The translations under genes and the position numbers were made by a program. This document shows, in pieces, positions 26,496 to 35,476 of a stretch of DNA of 35,667 nt (the first letter of the stretch is position 1; the number at the start of each line of letters is the position of its first letter). Below the pieces are notes generated by a model. It made no database searches and was not told the origin of the DNA. It saw only the letters and a program-made list of their open reading frames with translations. The stretch lies in assembly GCA_021791515.1 (NCBI GenBank), contig JAJYWK010000056.1:1-35667 (forward strand), written 5' to 3'. The DNA comes from a bacterium (GTDB lineage: Bacteria; Patescibacteriota; Doudnabacteria; UBA920).

Positions 26496-27677
26496 ATGAA
26501 AAAAAAGCTATATATATTTTCCCTTATTATCCTGTTGACGGTTTTCACCATACCTTCGGCACTTGCCCAAGAGTATGGCTATTTAGCAAAAAAAGACACT
26601 CTTGGCACGAAAACTATTCTGACTTTTATAGACAAAGACTATGTCCACTCGCCATTACTGCCCAATACCAGCGTAACTTTAACTTTTTTGATTCAAGACT
26701 CCAGAAACCCCGGACTCTCCCAACTTTGCCCGGAGGGAATAAAAATGATTGCTTTTTTAAAACACTGGACCGGATCTTCGTTTGACTTTCCCACAATATA
26801 TAATCATCCTGTTCCTAATTTTAATTTTACTTATAATTTTAATTCCGGGACAGCCGGGCAAGCCAATAAATACTCCTCTATTTTTATTTGTAGCAATCAA
26901 GGTATATCCGGCACCACCGTTCAGAACCAACAACGCAATATTGATAATTTAAAAAATCAAGCCCTGGCTTGGGAAAGCTATCCATTGGAACTTGTTACCA
27001 AATCAGCGCCATCTTTAAGCTTTGACCCTCCCCTGCCATCCAATAGCACATATGCTCCCGACACCAAAATTAATATTGTAGCCTCAAATTTACCAAGCGC
27101 TCTTGGCAATGCCCAATGCGGCGCAGGCGCCAACAATCCCAATTATGTAATGAAGGTAAAACTCAATAATAACCCGGATATAAGATTTTTCTGTTTTCCT
27201 TACCCCTTTTCTATTAAGACCGGCGCGGTCGAAGGCGCTGTTGATATGACAGGCGGCGATAACAGTTTGTCCGTTTTTATTTCCGATACCCAAGGTAATA
27301 TTATTGCCCGCAACAGTATTAGTTTTAAAGTCGGGCAACCTGCCGCCGCGCCTCCAGGCCCCGGACAGCCGGGCACTCCGGCCGTTAATCCTCCCTGCAC
27401 CGACCCTGCCAAATGCCTGTACAACCCCCTGCCCCAGGAAGATTTAACCAGCGTATTTTTAAGTTTGGTCAAAGGCTTTTTAGCCATAACCGGCATTTGG
27501 GCGGTAATGTTCATAATTGTCGGCGGTTTCCAAATGGTGATGGCCGCGGGCAACGAAGAAATGTACCTCAAAGCCAAAAAAACCATAATTTGGGCAATCT
27601 TGGGCCTTGTTATTGCCATGCTGGCCTTTAGCATAGTTGCTATAGTCCAAAGCCTGCTTAACGCAACTATAAAGTGA
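26496..27677 (+). CDS. secreted protein with C-terminal VirB2/TrbC-like pilin domain
   Basis: A cleavable signal (LYIFSLIILLTVFTIPSALA, cut before QEYG) precedes ~260 residues of beta-rich sequence with four or more cysteines. A Pro/Gly linker (AAPPGPGQPGTPAVNPP) then leads to a module of about 75 residues with two helices: LVKGFLAITGIWAVMFIIVG and TIIWAILGLVIAMLAFSIVA joined by MAAGNEEMYLKAKK. This two-helix layout with a positively charged hairpin is that of VirB2/TrbC type IV secretion pilins, common in CPR next to T4SS or pilus genes. The fusion to a large exported domain is unusual. No other T4SS component is in the window. Confidence 0.75.
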   Translation: MKKKLYIFSLIILLTVFTIPSALAQEYGYLAKKDTLGTKTILTFIDKDYVHSPLLPNTSVTLTFLIQDSRNPGLSQLCPEGIKMIAFLKHWTGSSFDFPTIYNHPVPNFNFTYNFNSGTAGQANKYSSIFICSNQGISGTTVQNQQRNIDNLKNQALAWESYPLELVTKSAPSLSFDPPLPSNSTYAPDTKINIVASNLPSALGNAQCGAGANNPNYVMKVKLNNNPDIRFFCFPYPFSIKTGAVEGAVDMTGGDNSLSVFISDTQGNIIARNSISFKVGQPAAAPPGPGQPGTPAVNPPCTDPAKCLYNPLPQEDLTSVFLSLVKGFLAITGIWAVMFIIVGGFQMVMAAGNEEMYLKAKKTIIWAILGLVIAMLAFSIVAIVQSLLNATIK

Positions 27678-27799: not shown

Positions 27800-27888
27800 A
27801 ATTCAAAAACCCCCATAGCTTTACCTTTCAGTTTCTCTCTCCAAGACCTGGAGAGAGTTAGAGAGAGGTTGATGGGGGTTTTTGAATT
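27800..27888 (+). terminator. Long-armed terminator-like inverted repeat
   Basis: AATTCAAAAACCCCCAT (27800-27816) and ATGGGGGTTTTTGAATT (27872-27888) are perfect 17-bp arms. The loop holds a second hairpin, CTCTCTCCA/TGGAGAGAG. The inner TTTTT gives a tail in the plus direction; it works in both directions by symmetry. Confidence 0.6.
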
Positions 27889-27917: not shown

Positions 27918-28074
27918 CGTCATCAAGGAGATCGATTCCTTTCAGCCGGCGCGCGAGCGCGGGCGAAAAGATGCGATCTTTCTTTATTGGTCAAGCGTCC
28001 CCGAAACTTCCGGGGAAAAGCGAACTGGCGAACGTCACCAAGACTAGACTGACTAAGAAACTCCTTGATGACGA
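27918..28074. repeat. Structured 157-bp region bracketed by CGTCATCAAGGAG repeats
   Basis: CGTCATCAAGGAG (27918-27930) and CTCCTTGATGACG (28061-28073) are perfect 13-bp arms. Inside are CCCCGAAACTTCCGGGG, AAAGATGCGATCTTT and GCGCGCGAGCGCG. It is the 3' end of the GC-rich operon (minus strand) and may be its 3' UTR or a separate RNA. Confidence 0.5.
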
Positions 28075-28102
28075 TCTGCCGCTCTTGTGGCTGCGGCATA
28101 AC

Positions 28103-28660
28103 CTACTCCACCGTGATGCGGAGGACGATGTTGTCCGCGGCATGCGTATGCCGGTAAGACACATTTCCCTCCACTTCCCAGCGGTTGCCCCCTAAGGGCT
28201 TTGCGACACTCTTGTAACCGGCTATGAGCTGAGGCTCGCCGGCTATGAGCAGGCCGCCGGGTGTCCGCCACTCGGCCTTCAGGACCTTTTTGGGCCCTTC
28301 CGACCAAACGGGGAACTGGAAGTTGTCCAGGCAGGACGCGGGTAGCGGGGAATCGGTGACTCCCGGGCCAACAACCTGCAATTCCGACTGACACGCCCCG
28401 TTGCCGGGGTCTTTGGCCTGCGCGGTACGCACGTGGAGCATGCCAAGCTCGTTGGCGTAGCCCCTGTTGAACCGCGCATCGTCCAACTGTCCGGCGCGCC
28501 GGGCCTTCTCCAAGACCAGAATATTCTTGTTGAACTGGGTCTTGGCAAAACCCTCAAGTCGGTTCTCCGCCGCCTCTTGGGCGGGGAGATACTTCGCCGC
28601 GCCCCAGAACAGGACGATGACGATGACGAGCCCGAGGAGGACAAACTTAGTGGTGGTCAT
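28103..28660 (-). CDS. GC-rich orphan: membrane-anchored protein, 185 aa
   Basis: I do not recognise this protein. Residues 5-22 (KFVLLGLVIVIVLFWGAAKY) are a single anchor; the rest is outside the membrane, with a helical RLEGFAKTQFNKNILVLEKA segment followed by a beta-rich part and two cysteines (NGACQSE, PASCLDN). ATG 28660 is chosen since AAGGAGG lies 6-7 nt before it; the longer frame to 28756 lacks this. It overlaps the preceding gene by 14 nt. Last in a four-gene unit. Codons favour G/C at third positions, unlike the 0-27.7 kb genes. Confidence 0.75.
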   Translation of the reverse strand: MTTTKFVLLGLVIVIVLFWGAAKYLPAQEAAENRLEGFAKTQFNKNILVLEKARRAGQLDDARFNRGYANELGMLHVRTAQAKDPGNGACQSELQVVGPGVTDSPLPASCLDNFQFPVWSEGPKKVLKAEWRTPGGLLIAGEPQLIAGYKSVAKPLGGNRWEVEGNVSYRHTHAADNIVLRITVE

Positions 28661-29339
28661 TGTGCCCTCCTTGGGCCGGAGCCGCCGGAGCAGGAGTCGA
28701 GCCCGGCATCCGGAACTTCTGAAGAAGCCCCATGAGCCAGCTGATCCCAGCAACACACAGAATGATGTAGAGCCAACTTTCCGGGTCCATCAAATCGGGC
28801 AGGGGAAACGCGGGCATACCGCTGGTGGAGAACCACGCCTGGTAGACCAGAATCCCCACGGCCAGCGCGATGCCAGCCCGGGGAACTTTGGCCCACAGAT
28901 TCCAATCAATGTCTATCCCGCCAAGTATCCTGTACAGGAAGTACCCGGCGGTCGTCAGCAACAGGAACCCGGTGACCCCGAAGTTGACGTACAGCGGCAA
29001 AACGCAAGCGAAGACGTTGATGAATGTCTCTACTGCGACAAAGCCGATGACAACCCGGGAGAGGGCACGAAAGAACCCGATATTAGAGCCAACGTAGGCG
29101 CCGAATACCAGGCCAATCGGCCAGCCGCCGAAGATCCATCCAGCCAGAATCGCCACACCCGGCCAAGCAATTGCGAAATACGCATTGGCCGGATGGAGGA
29201 CCTGCTGGACGTAGCAGGAAATCGCGACCTGGCCGAAGACCATGATCACGAAATGCAAAATGAACAGCGTGATGATGGCCCGGAGTTCCGCCGCGCGGCG
29301 CCCGGCCATCACAGTCAGACCTTGCATGAAATTGAACAT
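28647..29339 (-). CDS. GC-rich orphan: polytopic membrane protein, 230 aa
   Basis: Five to six membrane helices are evident: ITLFILHFVIMVFGQVAISC, YFAIAWPGVAILAGWIFGGW, VVIGFVAVETFINVFACVLP, GVTGFLLLTTAGYFLYRILG, AGIALAVGILVYQAWF and LYIILCVAGISWLMGLL. It ends in an Ala/Pro-rich tail with GGHNDHH, a possible metal-binding or disordered end. No family is recognised. ATG 29339 has AAGGAAA upstream. It lies between two other block genes and overlaps the next by 14 nt, so the products may form a membrane complex. Confidence 0.78.
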   Translation of the reverse strand: MFNFMQGLTVMAGRRAAELRAIITLFILHFVIMVFGQVAISCYVQQVLHPANAYFAIAWPGVAILAGWIFGGWPIGLVFGAYVGSNIGFFRALSRVVIGFVAVETFINVFACVLPLYVNFGVTGFLLLTTAGYFLYRILGGIDIDWNLWAKVPRAGIALAVGILVYQAWFSTSGMPAFPLPDLMDPESWLYIILCVAGISWLMGLLQKFRMPGSTPAPAAPAQGGHNDHH

Positions 29340-29359
29340 TTCCGTTTCCTTTCCTTGTT

Positions 29360-30052
29360 CTATCGGTGGAAGTCTACGAACCACTGCCAAATGGTCCGCT
29401 TGGTCGGCGCAGGCCGCCTTGCCGGAGCTGGAAAGCCCCAACGAGCGCCCCTCTGCAACCGCCGACCCCAATTATTCAGTTGCTGGTTGGTATCGCCACT
29501 TGCGGTAACGATGCCGTCCCAAACCTTGCGCGAGATTCCGGGAACGTGGGTCTTGACCCAGTTCCAGACGGCCTCGTCCATCTGGTCGTCGAGCTTGCCG
29601 ACGGCCTTCAGCCGAGCGTTGCGCTCGGCATCGGTCTTAAGCTTCGCATACACCGCGATGACTTCCAGGCGCTTTTGAGGCGTCTCCTGGAGCGTCAGCG
29701 AGTTGCGAAATTTGGACCGCCGGCGCTGGTTTTTTGCCAGCCATTCGCCCAGGCTTTTGACCTGAGCTTTGGTGCACAGCCCGGCCCGAACAACGGCATC
29801 GAGGTCTTCGTCAAACATCTGCTCGTCGTAAAGACCCAAGCCCATCATGTGACGAACGAGGAGCTTGCGCGCCTCGTCGTGCTTGCCTTCAGAAACGAGC
29901 TGTCTCGCTTCCGCGACAACAGCCTTATCTTCGGCCGTCGCCGCCCTGCCGGTAAACGCCCGCTTAAGCATAGGCAGACCATAGATGAACCCCAGGTCCA
30001 ACCCAGCCTCGCGAGCGATCTCAAACAGGAGCTTCTTGCGTTCCTCGGTCAT
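29360..30052 (-). CDS. GC-rich orphan: soluble helical protein, 230 aa
   Basis: A cytoplasmic, helix-rich, basic protein: TEERKKLLFEIAREAGLDLG at the start, GKHDEARKLLVRHMMGLGLY near 58, and a C-terminal Trp- and Arg-rich end (RAPTKRTIWQWFVDFHR-like). I see no enzyme motif. AAAGGAAAAAG precedes the ATG. It lies 13 bp downstream of the Gly-rich gene and 20 bp before the membrane protein, in one transcript. Confidence 0.72.
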   Translation of the reverse strand: MTEERKKLLFEIAREAGLDLGFIYGLPMLKRAFTGRAATAEDKAVVAEARQLVSEGKHDEARKLLVRHMMGLGLYDEQMFDEDLDAVVRAGLCTKAQVKSLGEWLAKNQRRRSKFRNSLTLQETPQKRLEVIAVYAKLKTDAERNARLKAVGKLDDQMDEAVWNWVKTHVPGISRKVWDGIVTASGDTNQQLNNWGRRLQRGARWGFPAPARRPAPTKRTIWQWFVDFHR

Positions 30053-30065
30053 ACTCTTTTTCCTT

Positions 30066-30824
30066 TCAGTATTCGAACTCCAACGTCAGGGAAACCTCCT
30101 CGCCGGATTCCGGATGCAACACCGTCACGGTGCGCTCCATCCCGGCAAATTGGACTTCCAATAGCGCCAGCCCGTTGGCCGGCGTTTTGTAGGTAACGAC
30201 CTTCTTGCCCCGCGCTACCACCTTGCCGGTTTCCGTGTTGATAACGGTCACCGGCTCGCTGGCGCGAAGAATCAGGTCAGCGGCTTCCGCTTTGCCGTCC
30301 TTATTCAGGGTACGGATGGTCGGAAGCGTGAACTTGTTGGCGCGGGACTTCAAGGAGCCTTCGGGAAGTTGGCAAACAAGCCTTCTCCCTTTCTTGGCCG
30401 CCTTGGGTCCTTCCGTGGTCTCAAAAGCCGGCAGTTGAACCGCCTGCTCATAGACCCCCTCTCCTGGCACGGTGTTACGGTAATAGACCACCAGCACTTG
30501 GGTGAAGTGCTTGTAGTCCTCCGCGGCAAAGTCAAAGGCGATGCTTTGAACTTCGCCGTCAGCATCGGTGGCCAAGACGTACCTGTTGGCGGAGCTGGTC
30601 ACATCCATGATCCAGGGACCATGGGCGTTGTCTGCGGTCCCCAGACGAAACATGAGTCTTTCGCCGAGGAGTGCAAACCTGCCTTTGCGGAGAATCACAT
30701 TGATTTTGCAATCGTTGCGCTTTCCGCTGATTCCCGCCGTGATGGTGATCTTGTTGTTGTCGCCACCGCCTCCGCCTCCGCGGTTTTGGTTCCCACCGCC
30801 ACCGCGATTACGGTTGTTCGCCAT
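30066..30824 (-). CDS. GC-rich orphan: Gly-rich N-terminus plus beta domains, 252 aa
   Basis: The first ~25 residues are an Asn/Arg/Gly-rich tail (NNRNRGGGGNQNRGGGGGG), a likely flexible or RNA-binding segment. Two beta-sandwich-like parts follow; the last (VTVINTETGKVVARGKKVVT... TVTVLHPESGEEVSLTLEFE) looks Ig-like. No signal peptide is seen, so it is presumably cytoplasmic. AAGGAGA is placed well before the ATG. It is first in a four-gene unit and follows a 425-nt structured leader. Confidence 0.75.
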   Translation of the reverse strand: MANNRNRGGGGNQNRGGGGGGDNNKITITAGISGKRNDCKINVILRKGRFALLGERLMFRLGTADNAHGPWIMDVTSSANRYVLATDADGEVQSIAFDFAAEDYKHFTQVLVVYYRNTVPGEGVYEQAVQLPAFETTEGPKAAKKGRRLVCQLPEGSLKSRANKFTLPTIRTLNKDGKAEAADLILRASEPVTVINTETGKVVARGKKVVTYKTPANGLALLEVQFAGMERTVTVLHPESGEEVSLTLEFEY

Positions 30825-31250
30825 AGACTTTTCTCCTTTCCATGGCTGTTCGAACTATTAACACACGCAAACGAAAATTGCTTTTCGTTCGCGAAAATAA
30901 ATTACGCTTGACTTATTCCTCCTTCTGCTCTGTCAAAGAGCAAAATCTTAAGTTCCGCCAAAGGCGGGACCGCAGTCACTCTTGCGAGTGGCAAAACCTC
31001 GTAAATCCAGCACCAATTTGTAGAGTGGTGTTATACAAATTCGTGCCTGTCCAAACAATCTATCTAAACACCAAATTGGTGCTTGGATAAATTGATGGTG
31101 TGATAATAAAATCCCCGCCATAGGTGGCGGGGAAATAATTATCGCACTTTACAAGGTTTTGCCCACCACAAGCAAAACCGTTCAGGTTGCAGTCCAGCTC
31201 TTTCTTTAGAAAGGGCTGGGCAAATAACCAATAATAGATTTTTTAGAGAA
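30825..31250 (-). ncRNA. Long structured leader of the GC-rich four-gene operon
   Basis: About 425 nt of leader hold a multibranched structure. GTGGCAAAACCTCGTAAA (30988-31005) pairs with TTTACAAGGTTTTGCCCAC (31148-31166); within it AGCACCAATTTG/CAAATTGGTGCT (31009-31083) and GTGTGATAAT/ATTATCGCAC (31098-31147), which caps TCCCCGCC/GGCGGGGA. GGTTTTGC at 31155-31162 can instead pair with GCAAAACC at 31172-31179, so two folds exclude each other. Further hairpins are CCAGCTCTTTCT/AGAAAGGGCTGG (31194-31219) and CGCAAACGAAAA/TTTTCGTTCGCG (30866-30893) near the gene. Looks like a regulatory leader; ligand unknown. Confidence 0.6.
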
Positions 31251-31256
31251 CCTAAA

Positions 31257-31285
31257 ATTATAATAGAAAAGTACCAAAAAGTCAA
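31257..31285 (-). promoter_or_regulatory. Near-consensus promoter of the four-gene GC-rich operon
   Basis: Minus strand TTGACT (31280-31285), 17-bp spacer, TATAAT (31257-31262). It is among the best promoters in the window and lies about 430 bp from the first start codon. Confidence 0.82.
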
Positions 31286-31342
31286 GGCTTTTTGCTCAAA
31301 TTTACCTATTTCAAAGCAAATAAATAATTTTTCCTTTTATTT

Positions 31343-31385
31343 AAAACAAAAAACAAGCGCACCCCCCTCCTAAAGGATGCGCTTG
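31343..31385 (-). terminator. Intrinsic terminator of the 305-aa gene
   Basis: Minus strand CAAGCGCA...TGCGCTTG (31354-31361 with 31378-31385), inner TCC/GGA pairing, then TTTTTTGTTTT. A further hairpin, CCCCGC/GCGGGG with a nested CCGCC/GGCGG, precedes it at about 31395-31425. Confidence 0.82.
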
Positions 31386-31449
31386 CTGCTATCACCCCGC
31401 TCCGCCGGTTGGCGGATGGCGGGGGCTACAAATGTTGTTGTTGATCCCC

Positions 31450-32367
31450 TCACTTGGGGATACTGGTGATGATTTTGGGCTTTTTGGCCAAACGTTTGGC
31501 CATCCAGCCGCACGGCACCGGCCATCCTTCAATGGCCGACACCACGCAAGCCACGCCAACTGCCCCGACAGCGATGCCGATGTAGAGCTTTTTGTGGCTC
31601 TTCTTCGGCTTCGGCGCTATCACCGGTTCGGGGAGTGGTGACGCCGGAGCCGTGATGGCCGGAGGCAGAGTGGCCGCAATGCGGACGAGGCAACGAATAA
31701 TGTGCCCGTCCTCATCCACACCCTCTACCCAAAGCTTATACAGCCCCGCCCTGGCAAAGTCGCCGCGGTCCAGGTGGACCGTATTGCCCTCGCCGCGAAC
31801 CTCGCCCGCGTCGTCCTTCCACAGCACGTTCGAGACGTGGCCGCGGAATGATGCCGTAAGCGACAATGACAGGTCGCTGGTGAGTACGACGTTCATCACA
31901 TCGTTCTCCCATACCACCGGTCCCTGCCACTCCACATCCCCGCACGTCGGGCAAACGTGGACTTTCTTTTCAACCGGCGGTGGTGGTGCGGGTGTAGGTT
32001 CCGGAGTTGGCTCCGGGACATCCCAGAGTTCCTCCACCGGGTTACCACACCGGGGATCGCCAATCTTGTCGCCCTGGCGAAAATACCCGATGCCAGCTGG
32101 CCAGCGAACGATGCGCCAACCGACGACCGTGAATTCCTTGGCGCAGCGCGCCTTGGAATCCTGGACGTGCTCGGCCTTGCCGAGAGAAACCATCTCTTTC
32201 CACCAGCCCAACTTCTCGTGATATTGGGGCTGATAGATCATAAAGGTTCCCTCCGGAGCCGACGTACAGGCCCGCGGGGTTTCAAAAAACATCGGTTTGC
32301 CAGCATCTTGCCCGAAGGCAAGAATGCCGACTGAAAGCAACAGGAGAAACGCAAATGCCGTACGCAT
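31450..32367 (-). CDS. GC-rich orphan: secreted protein with Pro-rich hinge and C-terminal anchor, 305 aa
   Basis: A signal peptide (FAFLLLLSVGILAFG, cut before QDAG) starts the protein. A ~100-residue domain follows, with CTSAPEGTFMIYQPQYHEKL and three cysteines; then a Pro/Glu hinge (PEPTPEPTPAPPPP); then a CPTCGD pair and a beta-sandwich of PKD/Ig type (LTASFRGHVSNVLWKDDAG, GLYKLWVEGVDEDGHII); then a Lys-rich segment and a helix (LYIGIAVGAVGVACVVSAI). I recognise no family. GGGAGG lies before the ATG. Monocistronic, with its own promoter and terminator. Confidence 0.75.
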   Translation of the reverse strand: MRTAFAFLLLLSVGILAFGQDAGKPMFFETPRACTSAPEGTFMIYQPQYHEKLGWWKEMVSLGKAEHVQDSKARCAKEFTVVGWRIVRWPAGIGYFRQGDKIGDPRCGNPVEELWDVPEPTPEPTPAPPPPVEKKVHVCPTCGDVEWQGPVVWENDVMNVVLTSDLSLSLTASFRGHVSNVLWKDDAGEVRGEGNTVHLDRGDFARAGLYKLWVEGVDEDGHIIRCLVRIAATLPPAITAPASPLPEPVIAPKPKKSHKKLYIGIAVGAVGVACVVSAIEGWPVPCGWMAKRLAKKPKIITSIPK

Positions 32368-32610
32368 TGCTTGCCTCCCTTTCTTCCATCCGGGCTGAAG
32401 TTTGCCTTTCGGCAGCCGGACGAACGAAGAGAAATATCTAAACTTTAGATATCCCTTTCCGTTCGTCCGGGCTGCATACCCAGCCTGCAGTTATCCGCGT
32501 CCATTCAGCGTAGCTATCCGCGTATCATCCGCGTCTTACAACAACAACTTCCTCCTAAAAAATTATTAACTTAAAATTGCAAAACTCTTTTGAGCTTTAC
32601 GCCCAAAAGA
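32368..32610 (-). other. Structured leader of the 305-aa gene
   Basis: GCAGCCGGACGAACG (32412-32426) pairs with CGTTCGTCCGGGCTGC (32460-32475) with one bulge, capped by ATATCTAAA/TTTAGATAT (32434-32452). Upstream in the RNA are ACGCGGAT words. About 240 nt separate promoter and gene. Confidence 0.55.
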
Positions 32611-32616
32611 CTTATT

Positions 32617-32645
32617 ACTGTAGCATAAAAATCCCTATTTGTAAA
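32617..32645 (-). promoter_or_regulatory. Candidate promoter of the 305-aa gene
   Basis: Minus strand TTTACA (32640-32645), 17-bp spacer, TACAGT (32617-32622). Weaker than the other two block promoters. Confidence 0.45.
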
Positions 32646-32649
32646 GAGT

Positions 32650-32996
32650 TTGACGGCTGAAACCCCCTCTCCAATTCATGGAGAAAGATTGAGGGAGAAG
32701 TTAAAAGTATCGGGATTAAAAAATATAGGCCTTTTATCTCCATGCAGGTATCACACTTTAGCGTGGCCGCGTTAAAGTCTGATATCAAAATCTCTTAAGG
32801 ACTTTTTCGCAATTCTGTTGTGCTGTCATCCCGACCGACCCCGACTTTAGTCGGGAGAGCGGAGGGATCCCTTAACGTCAAATTGATCACGAACTCTACG
32901 GGATTTTTCGGCTCGTCTGACCTGTCTGTGGCAGACAGGCTCGCTCGGAATGACACCGGGACTATTGATTTGGTTTTTTGCGAAAAAAGAAGACAC
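32650..32996. repeat. Gene-free stretch made of dispersed palindromes
   Basis: No coding region is supported. It holds CTCTCCAATTCATGGAGA, a foldback of TATCACACTTTAGCGTGG, ACCCCGACTTTAGTCGGGAG, a GTCATCCCGA...GGGATCC word and CCTGTCTGTGGCAGACAGG. These are the same classes of repeat as at 27676-27860. Confidence 0.5.
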
Positions 32997-33159
32997 AGGA
33001 CTTACGCACTGAGTCAAGTGCAAGGCATTTTGCGAGGATTTTATGAGGCGTAGCCAAGCTACGGCGAGTAAAACCACAGCAAAATAACGAAGCAATTGAC
33101 CAGAGCCGCTTTCAAGGATCCGGCTCCGCCGGTCCTAAAGACGGCGGTGCGTAAGTCCT
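32997..33159. mobile_element. 163-bp MITE-like element
   Basis: Perfect 13-bp terminal inverted repeats AGGACTTACGCAC (32997-33009) and GTGCGTAAGTCCT (33147-33159). The inside is an imperfect palindrome centred on GCGTAGCCAAGCTACGGC. There is no ORF. GGACTTACGCA ends resemble those of several bacterial transposon families, so it is probably a non-autonomous derivative; the parent is not in the window and no clear target duplication was found. Confidence 0.7.
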
Positions 33160-33217
33160 AAGACAAAAGAAAGCAGCAGGAAGGCGGACCCGGGGGGTCA
33201 CGCGCATTCCTGCTGCT
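33160..33217 (-). terminator. Intrinsic terminator of the 558-aa gene
   Basis: Minus strand AGCAGCAGGAA (33207-33217) pairs with TTCCTGCTGCT (33172-33182), 11 bp with a 24-nt GC-rich loop, then TTCTTTTGTCTT. It ends one base from the MITE. Confidence 0.82.
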
Positions 33218-33278
33218 GATTGGCTCCTTCCACATCTACTTGCCGTTGGGCTTTCAATGGGAGGGATGATAACGTTAC

Positions 33279-34955
33279 TTACTGATTACCGGGCTGCATG
33301 GGCGCCCGGCCGCTGGTGGCCGGTGCCGCGGCGACGTGATTCGGGAAGACGGCCTCACAGCCGGCCCCCAGACTGCCGTCCTTCTGGAGCTGCTTTACGC
33401 AACCCCGAATGAACTCCGCCGTGAGGGCGGCCTTGGGGGCCAACTGCTCCAGCTTGGGCTTGCCCAAGCCGAGGAAGCCACTCCGGCCACCGGCGAGGAC
33501 GGACACGTGGCCGAGTTCAGCCACCGTGCCCGCGAGGGCACCGGTGGCGTCCATCGCGGCGTCCGCCTTCATCTCCACCCGCTGGATGCGGGCGGTGAGC
33601 GGGGCGAGATCCGCACTGGTGGCTTGCGGCAGGGACTGAATCCCCGCCTCAATTCCACCGGCGATGGCGGCCTTCAGCCGAGGATCGCCCAGCGTCCGGT
33701 CGGCTGCGTTGAACTCTGCGGCATTGGCGAGCTTCGCCATCACCGCGTTCTCTTCTGCCTGGTTCCGCGCTTTTTTCAGTTGCCCGAAAAGCTCGGTGCC
33801 GGTAATGGCCGGTCCAAACTCTTTGCCGCACCGTGCCTTCGCAGGCTCGGTGCCACAAACGGCGTTAAAGAGAGCCAACCACCGCATATCCTCCCGCGCC
33901 GCGATGCGGGCGGAAAAATCGGTAGTCGGAGCGATGGGAGCCGAGGGGGCAGTGTCTCTGACTTTCAGCGTCTTGCCGGAATCCTCAAAGGATCCGGCAG
34001 CGGTCGCTTGAATCATCAGCTTGTAGTCGCCTTTGGCCGCGGTCGCCGTAGCGTCAAAGGTGAACTCGAGGCATCCCTTGTCGGCCTCGAGCTTGCTGTG
34101 CTTCAGCCCCTCGAACTTGGCGTCATTGGCCGTGTCGAGTCCAGAACCGCACACCTTAACGAGCCCCGACTCGCCGGCCTTCAGAGAAGACGGAGTGATC
34201 GAAGCGACAGTCGGTGTAGCGGCATGGAGCGCAGGGATCATCAAGCAAATTATGAGAACCGGGACAAGAGCCCGGATCCACGAAATGCCGAGCAATCGCC
34301 GCCGCAGGTCGATGATGTAGACAAAAACGACCAGGAAGCTAAACAGCAGTCCGTAGCACAGCCAGCGGAAGTGCTTAACCAGCTGCAAAAGCTGCGCCCG
34401 CGTCAGCTCAATTGTGTTCGGTCGCAGATCACCTTTGATATTCTGGATGGCCAAGTTCACCTTGGAAAGAGTGACGTCTGACCGAACGGTCCGGTCATCT
34501 TTCTGGTAGGTGCCCTGCAACCTGGCCACTTCGTCTCTGATGTCTTCGAAGTCCCTGGCCGTGAACGCCCATGGGGCGACCTTGACCGTAAAGGTCTTAG
34601 TCACCACCTTGTTCTCACTTGTGACCTTCACCGGGATGTTGATAGTGCCGACCTCTGTCGGCTGCCCGATAAAGCTACAGTCGCCGTTGGGTTCCACCTT
34701 ATCTGGGGCGCCCTCACCCAACTCACACTGGACCGGCGCATCTTCGCTCAGGTTTGTTTTGATGGAAAACCCGAACACCCGGCCGACCTGTACGTCGGTC
34801 GGCAAATCAGCGGTCACGACGAATGCGTCGTCGGTCTTTGCGAGCGCCGCGCCCTTTTTCGGAATCCCCGCGAGGGCGGGGATGGCGGACAGGTTGACGA
34901 AAAGAACCAGCGCGAGGCTGATCCTGGAAACGAGAGAGGTCTTGGCGTTGCACAT
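33279..34955 (-). CDS. GC-rich orphan: exported membrane protein with Ig-like and IPT/TIG-like domains, 558 aa
   Basis: A signal peptide (LVLFVNLSAIPALAG) is followed by an Ig-like domain with two Cys (VQCELG, GDCSFIG) at ~40-130, then a helical segment, a membrane helix (LCYGLLFSFLVVFVYIIDL) near 195-215 and a second (ALVPVLIICLMIPALHAA) at ~230-247. Next is an IPT/TIG-like domain, TPTVASITPSSLKAGESGLV to ~335, with paired Cys. The last ~200 residues are Ala-rich helical (IQRVEMKADAAMDATGALAG) and end in a Pro/Gln tail. Such architecture suggests a cell-envelope or surface assembly; no family is recognised. AGGAGG lies 6 nt before the ATG. Own promoter, leader and terminator. Confidence 0.78.
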   Translation of the reverse strand: MCNAKTSLVSRISLALVLFVNLSAIPALAGIPKKGAALAKTDDAFVVTADLPTDVQVGRVFGFSIKTNLSEDAPVQCELGEGAPDKVEPNGDCSFIGQPTEVGTINIPVKVTSENKVVTKTFTVKVAPWAFTARDFEDIRDEVARLQGTYQKDDRTVRSDVTLSKVNLAIQNIKGDLRPNTIELTRAQLLQLVKHFRWLCYGLLFSFLVVFVYIIDLRRRLLGISWIRALVPVLIICLMIPALHAATPTVASITPSSLKAGESGLVKVCGSGLDTANDAKFEGLKHSKLEADKGCLEFTFDATATAAKGDYKLMIQATAAGSFEDSGKTLKVRDTAPSAPIAPTTDFSARIAAREDMRWLALFNAVCGTEPAKARCGKEFGPAITGTELFGQLKKARNQAEENAVMAKLANAAEFNAADRTLGDPRLKAAIAGGIEAGIQSLPQATSADLAPLTARIQRVEMKADAAMDATGALAGTVAELGHVSVLAGGRSGFLGLGKPKLEQLAPKAALTAEFIRGCVKQLQKDGSLGAGCEAVFPNHVAAAPATSGRAPMQPGNQ

Positions 34956-35447: not shown

Positions 35448-35476
35448 ATTATACCAAATTACCAACAAAATGTCAA
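35448..35476 (-). promoter_or_regulatory. Consensus sigma-70-type promoter of the 558-aa gene
   Basis: Minus strand TTGACA (35471-35476), 17-bp spacer, TATAAT (35448-35453): a full match to consensus. The remaining window end (35477-35667) shows only a TATAAT at 35596-35601 on the plus strand and a short ACTTAAGT foldback; no gene. Confidence 0.85.

Follow-up and report, generated by a model that had tools for sequence, protein, structure and literature searches.

Near one end of a contig from the order of Ca. Doudnabacteria lie six genes that are rich in G and C at third codon positions (GC3) and preceded by Shine-Dalgarno (SD) sites, set between AT-rich spacers that look like those of the host. 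The first-pass annotation, made from the sequence alone, read this block as six orphan genes forming an acquired envelope or secretion system or an integrated element. This raises two questions. Was the block recently imported, and what might its products do? The window analysed here is the entire contig C19 (35,667 bases) of a 1.17 Mb genome whose assembly is 97.7% complete. The genomes compared carry G-numbers (G000 being this genome) and were drawn from an order set (n=49) and a phylum sample (n=380).

Gene content and composition of the block

At the core of the block lies a four-gene operon on the minus strand, from 30824 to 28103, plus a 58-aa gene that had previously been missed. The genes and their surroundings are as follows.

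26496–27677, plus strand: protein with a type IV secretion system (T4SS) pilin domain (PF18895), conserved neighbour of the operon
27800–27888, strand not given: long inverted repeat, terminator-like, 3′ of the operon
27923–28099, minus strand: operon gene 5 (w0), 58-aa ORF
28103–28660, minus strand: operon gene 4 (w1), N-terminal membrane anchor; real start ATG 28660
28647–29339, minus strand: operon gene 3 (w2), polytopic membrane protein; real start ATG 29339
29360–30052, minus strand: operon gene 2 (w3), soluble helical protein, 230 aa
30066–30824, minus strand: operon gene 1 (w4), Gly/Arg-rich N-terminus and beta-type domain
31450–32367, minus strand: gene w5, exported protein with signal peptide and C-terminal membrane segment; SD-led, GC3 0.70
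33279–34955, minus strand: gene w6, exported/membrane protein with a sub-threshold IPT-like domain; SD-led, GC3 0.76

All six annotated genes are present, with a seventh overlooked and the last two starts now placed at 28660 and 29339. The protein types assigned to w1–w4 stand, and of the two supposed Ig/IPT-like proteins only w6 shows such a domain, below threshold. Neither domains nor solved relatives nor a family match were found for w5, and database searches returned no relatives of w6. A 533-aa protein of G015, encoded 5′ of the operon there and alike in layout, was considered as a relative of w6 and rejected, there being no significant similarity between the two. AlphaFold models were poor for w2 and w3 (pLDDT 44 and 57, respectively). 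Other small SD-led orphan genes are found in relatives of the same genus (G007 L098, G006 L097/L101 and G004 L099); several are GC-rich with consensus promoters upstream, and many encode short exported proteins.

The GC-rich block is real. With frames correct, its six genes have GC3 values of 0.70–0.76, all of them above the 98th percentile of the genome (0.65; median 0.47, computed over about 1.06 Mb of it), and the compositional step near 27.7–28.1 kb is sharp. The codons AAG, GAG, CAG, CTC and CGG are used more often in the block genes, and since R/(R+K) is 0.49 in the block versus 0.34, the amino-acid content is shifted as well. High expression was rejected as a general cause of this codon use, because the ribosomal genes stay at a GC3 of about 0.43–0.51; for the same reason, the bias in GC3 and amino acids fits better with a foreign origin than with host-adapted codon use. 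The spacers are AT-rich (36–51% GC), as had been described, and contain dispersed repeats of host type; the spacer between w5 and w6 has matches, mostly at 75–84%, on at least nine further contigs. The same spacer holds a MITE-like element (32996–33161) with 13-bp terminal inverted repeats (AGGACTTACGCAC). No integrase or transposase was found among the block genes, and the nearest transposase identified (1526–2494) is 25 kb off.

The SD sites noticed before the block genes set them apart from native genes. Although the anti-SD of the 16S rRNA is intact (...GGATCACCTCCTTT), native genes use SD sites at about the level of chance (3.8% of genes genome-wide, versus 2.3% for shuffled upstream sequence), and a steep rise in frequency, to about 40–47% above GC3 0.60, is confined to GC3-rich genes. 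Across ten genomes, with the genes defined by homology, SD sites precede 26 of 30 operon genes versus 11 of 78 native markers (Fisher p 2e-12). Mean GC3 of the operon exceeds that of native genes in every genome compared, by +0.02 to +0.25, the excess being small (+0.02 to +0.09) in G002, G005, G008 and G028. Because this signature is common to all the genomes compared, it is old and kept rather than the mark of one recent import. In an organism whose other genes carry SD sites about as often as expected by chance, the SD-led operon genes are a clean exception, and being GC-rich and SD-led is by itself no proof of recent transfer. Hairpin leaders were also tried as a mark of all GC-rich genes and discarded; the regions upstream of native genes are structured too, and the trend is weak.

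Some other genes of this kind are scattered through the genome. Exported proteins are encoded by SD-led, GC3-rich genes at L079 656–1723 (−), L020 262–1038 (−), L060 14896–15312 (+) and L049 1847–2146 (+), several of which have near-consensus promoters and hairpin leaders upstream; the L020 product ends in a PEP-CTERM motif. SD-led, GC3-rich metabolic genes that look horizontally acquired lie at L066 10498–11328, L077 5950–7134, L050 365–1417 and L004 2732–3796; they comprise a nucleoside phosphorylase, an aminotransferase and a DAHP synthase (by Pfam) and a glutamine-synthetase-like gene (by eye).

Relatives, synteny and protein divergence

Searches with single proteins returned no relatives of the operon from the databases; these emerged only when the four proteins were concatenated into one query or when profiles were used. 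The concatenated query located the operon in G002, G003, G005, G022, G028 and G040, and a profile of w3 matched 9 of the 49 order genomes, gaining G008 and G010; G009 came in addition to these nine. Altogether, homologues of the operon are present in about ten genomes of the order. By profile, most of the 49 lack the operon, some congeneric genomes among them, and in the 380-genome phylum sample the w3 profile found essentially nothing outside the order, giving two short marginal matches. At the corresponding position in G002 lies a relative of the 58-aa w0, which is 45% identical to it (E 7e-10 when only these two were compared and 2e-6 in a search). The core operon can therefore no longer be called orphan, since it has these homologues; the term may still suit w5 and w6, for which no relatives were detected. 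The search for the same gene set elsewhere, which the annotation had suggested, thus succeeded among relatives within the order and gave no match in viral contigs or phages for the proteins tried, nor in plasmids for w3. A phage origin was considered and set aside, since the genes of an apparent prophage in the same genome (C11, L022 14466 to L075 12443, in which genes resembling those for a capsid protein and a DNA methylase were recognised by eye) reach a GC3 of 0.5–0.7 but are mostly without SD sites.

In three families of the order (f1, f2 and f4) the operon is syntenic with T4SS pilins. Two arrangements recur. The operon stands between ftsH and the pilins in G008, G009, G022 and G040 (in G005 and G007 this arrangement is split by contig ends), and follows FtsZ and a pilin in the present window, G001 and G002, with the pilin–operon pair also in G003 and G015. 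The position thus recurs in two pilin-flanked slots and does not differ from genome to genome as that of a mobile element would. PF18895 scores of the pilins are 42.9 and 55.3 bits against a cutoff of 26.6, and the adjacent pilin is likewise found in G001, G002, G003 and G015. The other flank of the operon slot encodes very large proteins of 650–1390 aa (L116 12963–18874, L120 1931–9487 and L123 43–3711); the three tested had no Pfam match.

The proteins of the operon change very fast. Between genomes of the genus, housekeeping proteins mostly share 81–90% identity. FtsZ and NrdJ of this genome are 82–90% identical to those of G001, G002 and G004, and FtsH of G005 is 81–87% identical to its counterparts in G001, G002, G004, G006 and G007, whereas operon proteins within the same genus are 38–60% identical (w3) or unrecognisable. 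The gene-2 candidates of G001 and G007 gave no profile match to w3. The w2 counterpart in G007 is a remote match (prob 91) and the w4 counterpart in G015 is remotely similar, both under the same RNA leader, which itself hardly changes. Different from w4, its counterpart in G009 begins with a cold-shock domain (PF00313; 36.3 bits, cutoff 27), as does, with a weaker score, that in G028; in w4 this domain is replaced by a Gly/Arg-rich tail joined to the beta-type domain.

A covarying RNA leader and its promoters

The following signals accompany the operon, w5 and w6.

30907–30942, minus strand: second leader module, TGCTCTTTGACA (CTTTGACA)..AGGAGG..GTCAAG, an SD-like site between complementary arms, read directly
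30981–31172, minus strand: structured RNA leader, stem CTTGTGGTGGGCAAAACC..GTAAA / TTTAC..GGTTTTGCCACTCGCAAG, with terminator-like and other hairpins in the loop
31257–31285, minus strand: operon promoter, TTGACT-17-TATAAT, 11/12
31352–31387, minus strand: intrinsic terminator 3′ of w5, 16 pairs
32617–32645, minus strand: weak promoter-like site of w5, TTTACA-17-TACAGT, 9/12
33164–33217, minus strand: terminator-like hairpin and T tract 3′ of w6, read directly
35448–35476, minus strand: w6 promoter, TTGACA-17-TATAAT, 12/12, extended -10

Three promoters with 17-bp spacing had been proposed, of which two are strong and the third, that of w5, is weak. Terminator-like hairpins do stand 3′ of the operon, w5 and w6. 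Consensus 12/12 promoters precede the same RNA leader in G001, G002, G005, G007 and G009. The precise control suspected earlier is borne out to the extent that near-consensus promoters are combined with a conserved structured leader.

The leader, with the pattern CTTGTGGTGGGCAAAACC...GGTTTTGCC.CTC..AAG, occurs in nine genomes of one family, always 5′ of this operon, and varies hardly at all in its 5′ strand; the variant in G008 is shorter. Allowing up to two mismatches, its core was found in 12 of the 49 order genomes, 8 of these being true instances 5′ of an SD-led operon, and a reversed control pattern in 0. Unguided folding of the nine full sequences with RNAalifold gave one long stem in 9/9 with compensatory changes. 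In the stem arms of the nine genomes 100% of cells are paired and 4 pairs are changed on both sides; these counts come from a hand-assembled alignment of the excised arms with the variable loop omitted, nine sequences being a modest depth. The covariation score was reached by 0 of 500 shuffles. A covariance model of the leader detected it in 8 of the 380 phylum genomes, all of family f1 and in single copy, with 78–98 bits on the sense strand versus 31–50 on the opposite one. No second copy was found in this genome, and the Rfam 15 covariance models gave only chance-level matches for the leader. It is, in short, a covarying structured RNA unmatched in Rfam. Elsewhere in the genome, a LOOT RNA (RF03000) was recognised at L079 9749–9891 (−) with 50.7 bits.

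The loop contains a terminator-like hairpin followed by a T run in 8 of the nine sequences; in the present window this nested terminator lies at 31133–31112. An invariant GTGGTG is complementary to CACCAC in the loop, a pairing that lacks covariation support because it never varies, and is predicted to form duplexes of -8 to -15 kcal/mol with the 5′ arm of the terminator. Such alternative pairings suggest attenuation. The second module, whose pattern is also seen in the leaders of G003, G005, G007 and G015, could hide or present an SD site. Antitermination through boxA and NusB was considered and rejected: boxA-like TGCTCTTTGACA is present, and NusB was not found in this assembly.

Like attenuator leaders of the riboswitch or protein-binding kind, the leader has a covarying stem, a nested terminator-like hairpin with T run, an alternative partner for an invariant strand and a strong promoter upstream; different from them, it matches nothing in Rfam 15 and is confined to one family.

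Descent and possible role of the operon

We consider it reasonably probable (about 0.6) that the core is an envelope operon of the Ca. Doudnabacteria order that is conserved by vertical descent, evolves fast and is linked in function to the VirB2-like T4SS pili; its vertical descent is what synteny and taxonomic range point to. For the operon, the proposal of a recently acquired foreign island is largely refuted, and we regard it as improbable. Its attraction lies in the strong contrast of GC3, amino acids and SD use, in w6 having no relatives found and w5 no family match, and in the other scattered SD-led GC-rich genes here that look acquired, such as the PEP-CTERM protein. Set against this are the operon–pilin synteny in independent assemblies from three families of the order, a block without integrase, and the failure of viral contigs, phages and plasmids to match the proteins tried. 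Acquisition may still hold for w5 and w6, as neither has detectable sequence relatives. That the contig is chimeric or contaminated, a worry invited by the sharp compositional step and by the contig stopping at 35667, is hardly credible; such a chimera is excluded by the recurrence of the pilin–operon junction in the independent assemblies G002, G003 and G015, and host repeats lie within the spacers.

The main competing explanation is a fixed expression site, where promoter, leader and terminators descend in place and GC-rich SD-led cargo is repeatedly replaced by recombination. We hold this unlikely, though it would best explain why host-like AT-rich leaders stand beside foreign-looking genes whose amino-acid composition is shifted too, and why an almost invariant 5′ leader strand can precede proteins as unrecognisable as the gene-2 products of G001 and G007 are relative to w3. 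However, the order of the genes and the types of protein persist, and some counterparts are remotely homologous, so that fast divergence in place suffices, and the GC3 excess is slight in the four genomes named above.

Under the preferred reading of a vertically conserved operon, the encoded proteins would assemble into a small membrane complex, comprising a cytoplasmic nucleic-acid-binding protein (with a cold-shock or RG-rich N-terminus), a helical partner, and polytopic, anchored and exported partners. The near-consensus sigma-70 promoter predicts strong transcription, perhaps of leader and operon together; the observations that bear on this are the promoter position and G–U pairs on the sense strand. 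Presumably the structured leader sets transcript throughput by attenuation, since the invariant GTGGTGGG strand can pair with three partners: the 5′ arm of the terminator, CACCAC in the loop, or the long stem's 3′ strand. In contrast to native genes, the operon genes would be translated via their SD sites.

How might such a complex relate to the pili? The earlier idea of an envelope or secretion function gains from the adjacent VirB2-like pilins and from the membrane, anchored and exported products. Patescibacterial T4SS with VirB2-like pilin arrays (PF18895) have been described (PMC12102498), in a text that makes no mention of Doudnabacteria; in Saccharimonadia the T4SS is reported to be essential for epibiotic growth (PMC12102498). 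The operon adjoins such pilins in nearly all genomes examined. Two TraG/VirB4-type ATPase loci exist in this genome, but on C67 and C24, outside the contig of the window and its operon cluster, and inspection of stretches around the operon showed no virB4. Nor does any operon protein match a T4SS component in Pfam, PHROG or NCBIfam, VirB3/6/8 included. The adjacency may be mere synteny.

A bolder version, which we think doubtful, is that a near-invariant RNA switch and promoter drive hypervariable, SD-translated envelope proteins that are diversified or swapped between lineages and work with the T4SS pili. If true, this would be a fixed expression site serving, for example, host-cell recognition or nucleic-acid handling together with those pili.

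Patescibacteria live on other cells, and to our knowledge the partner proteins and the regulation of their T4SS are largely unknown. The locus described here provides a candidate operon, defined and specific to its lineage, next to the pilins, and with it a new conserved RNA element for testing.
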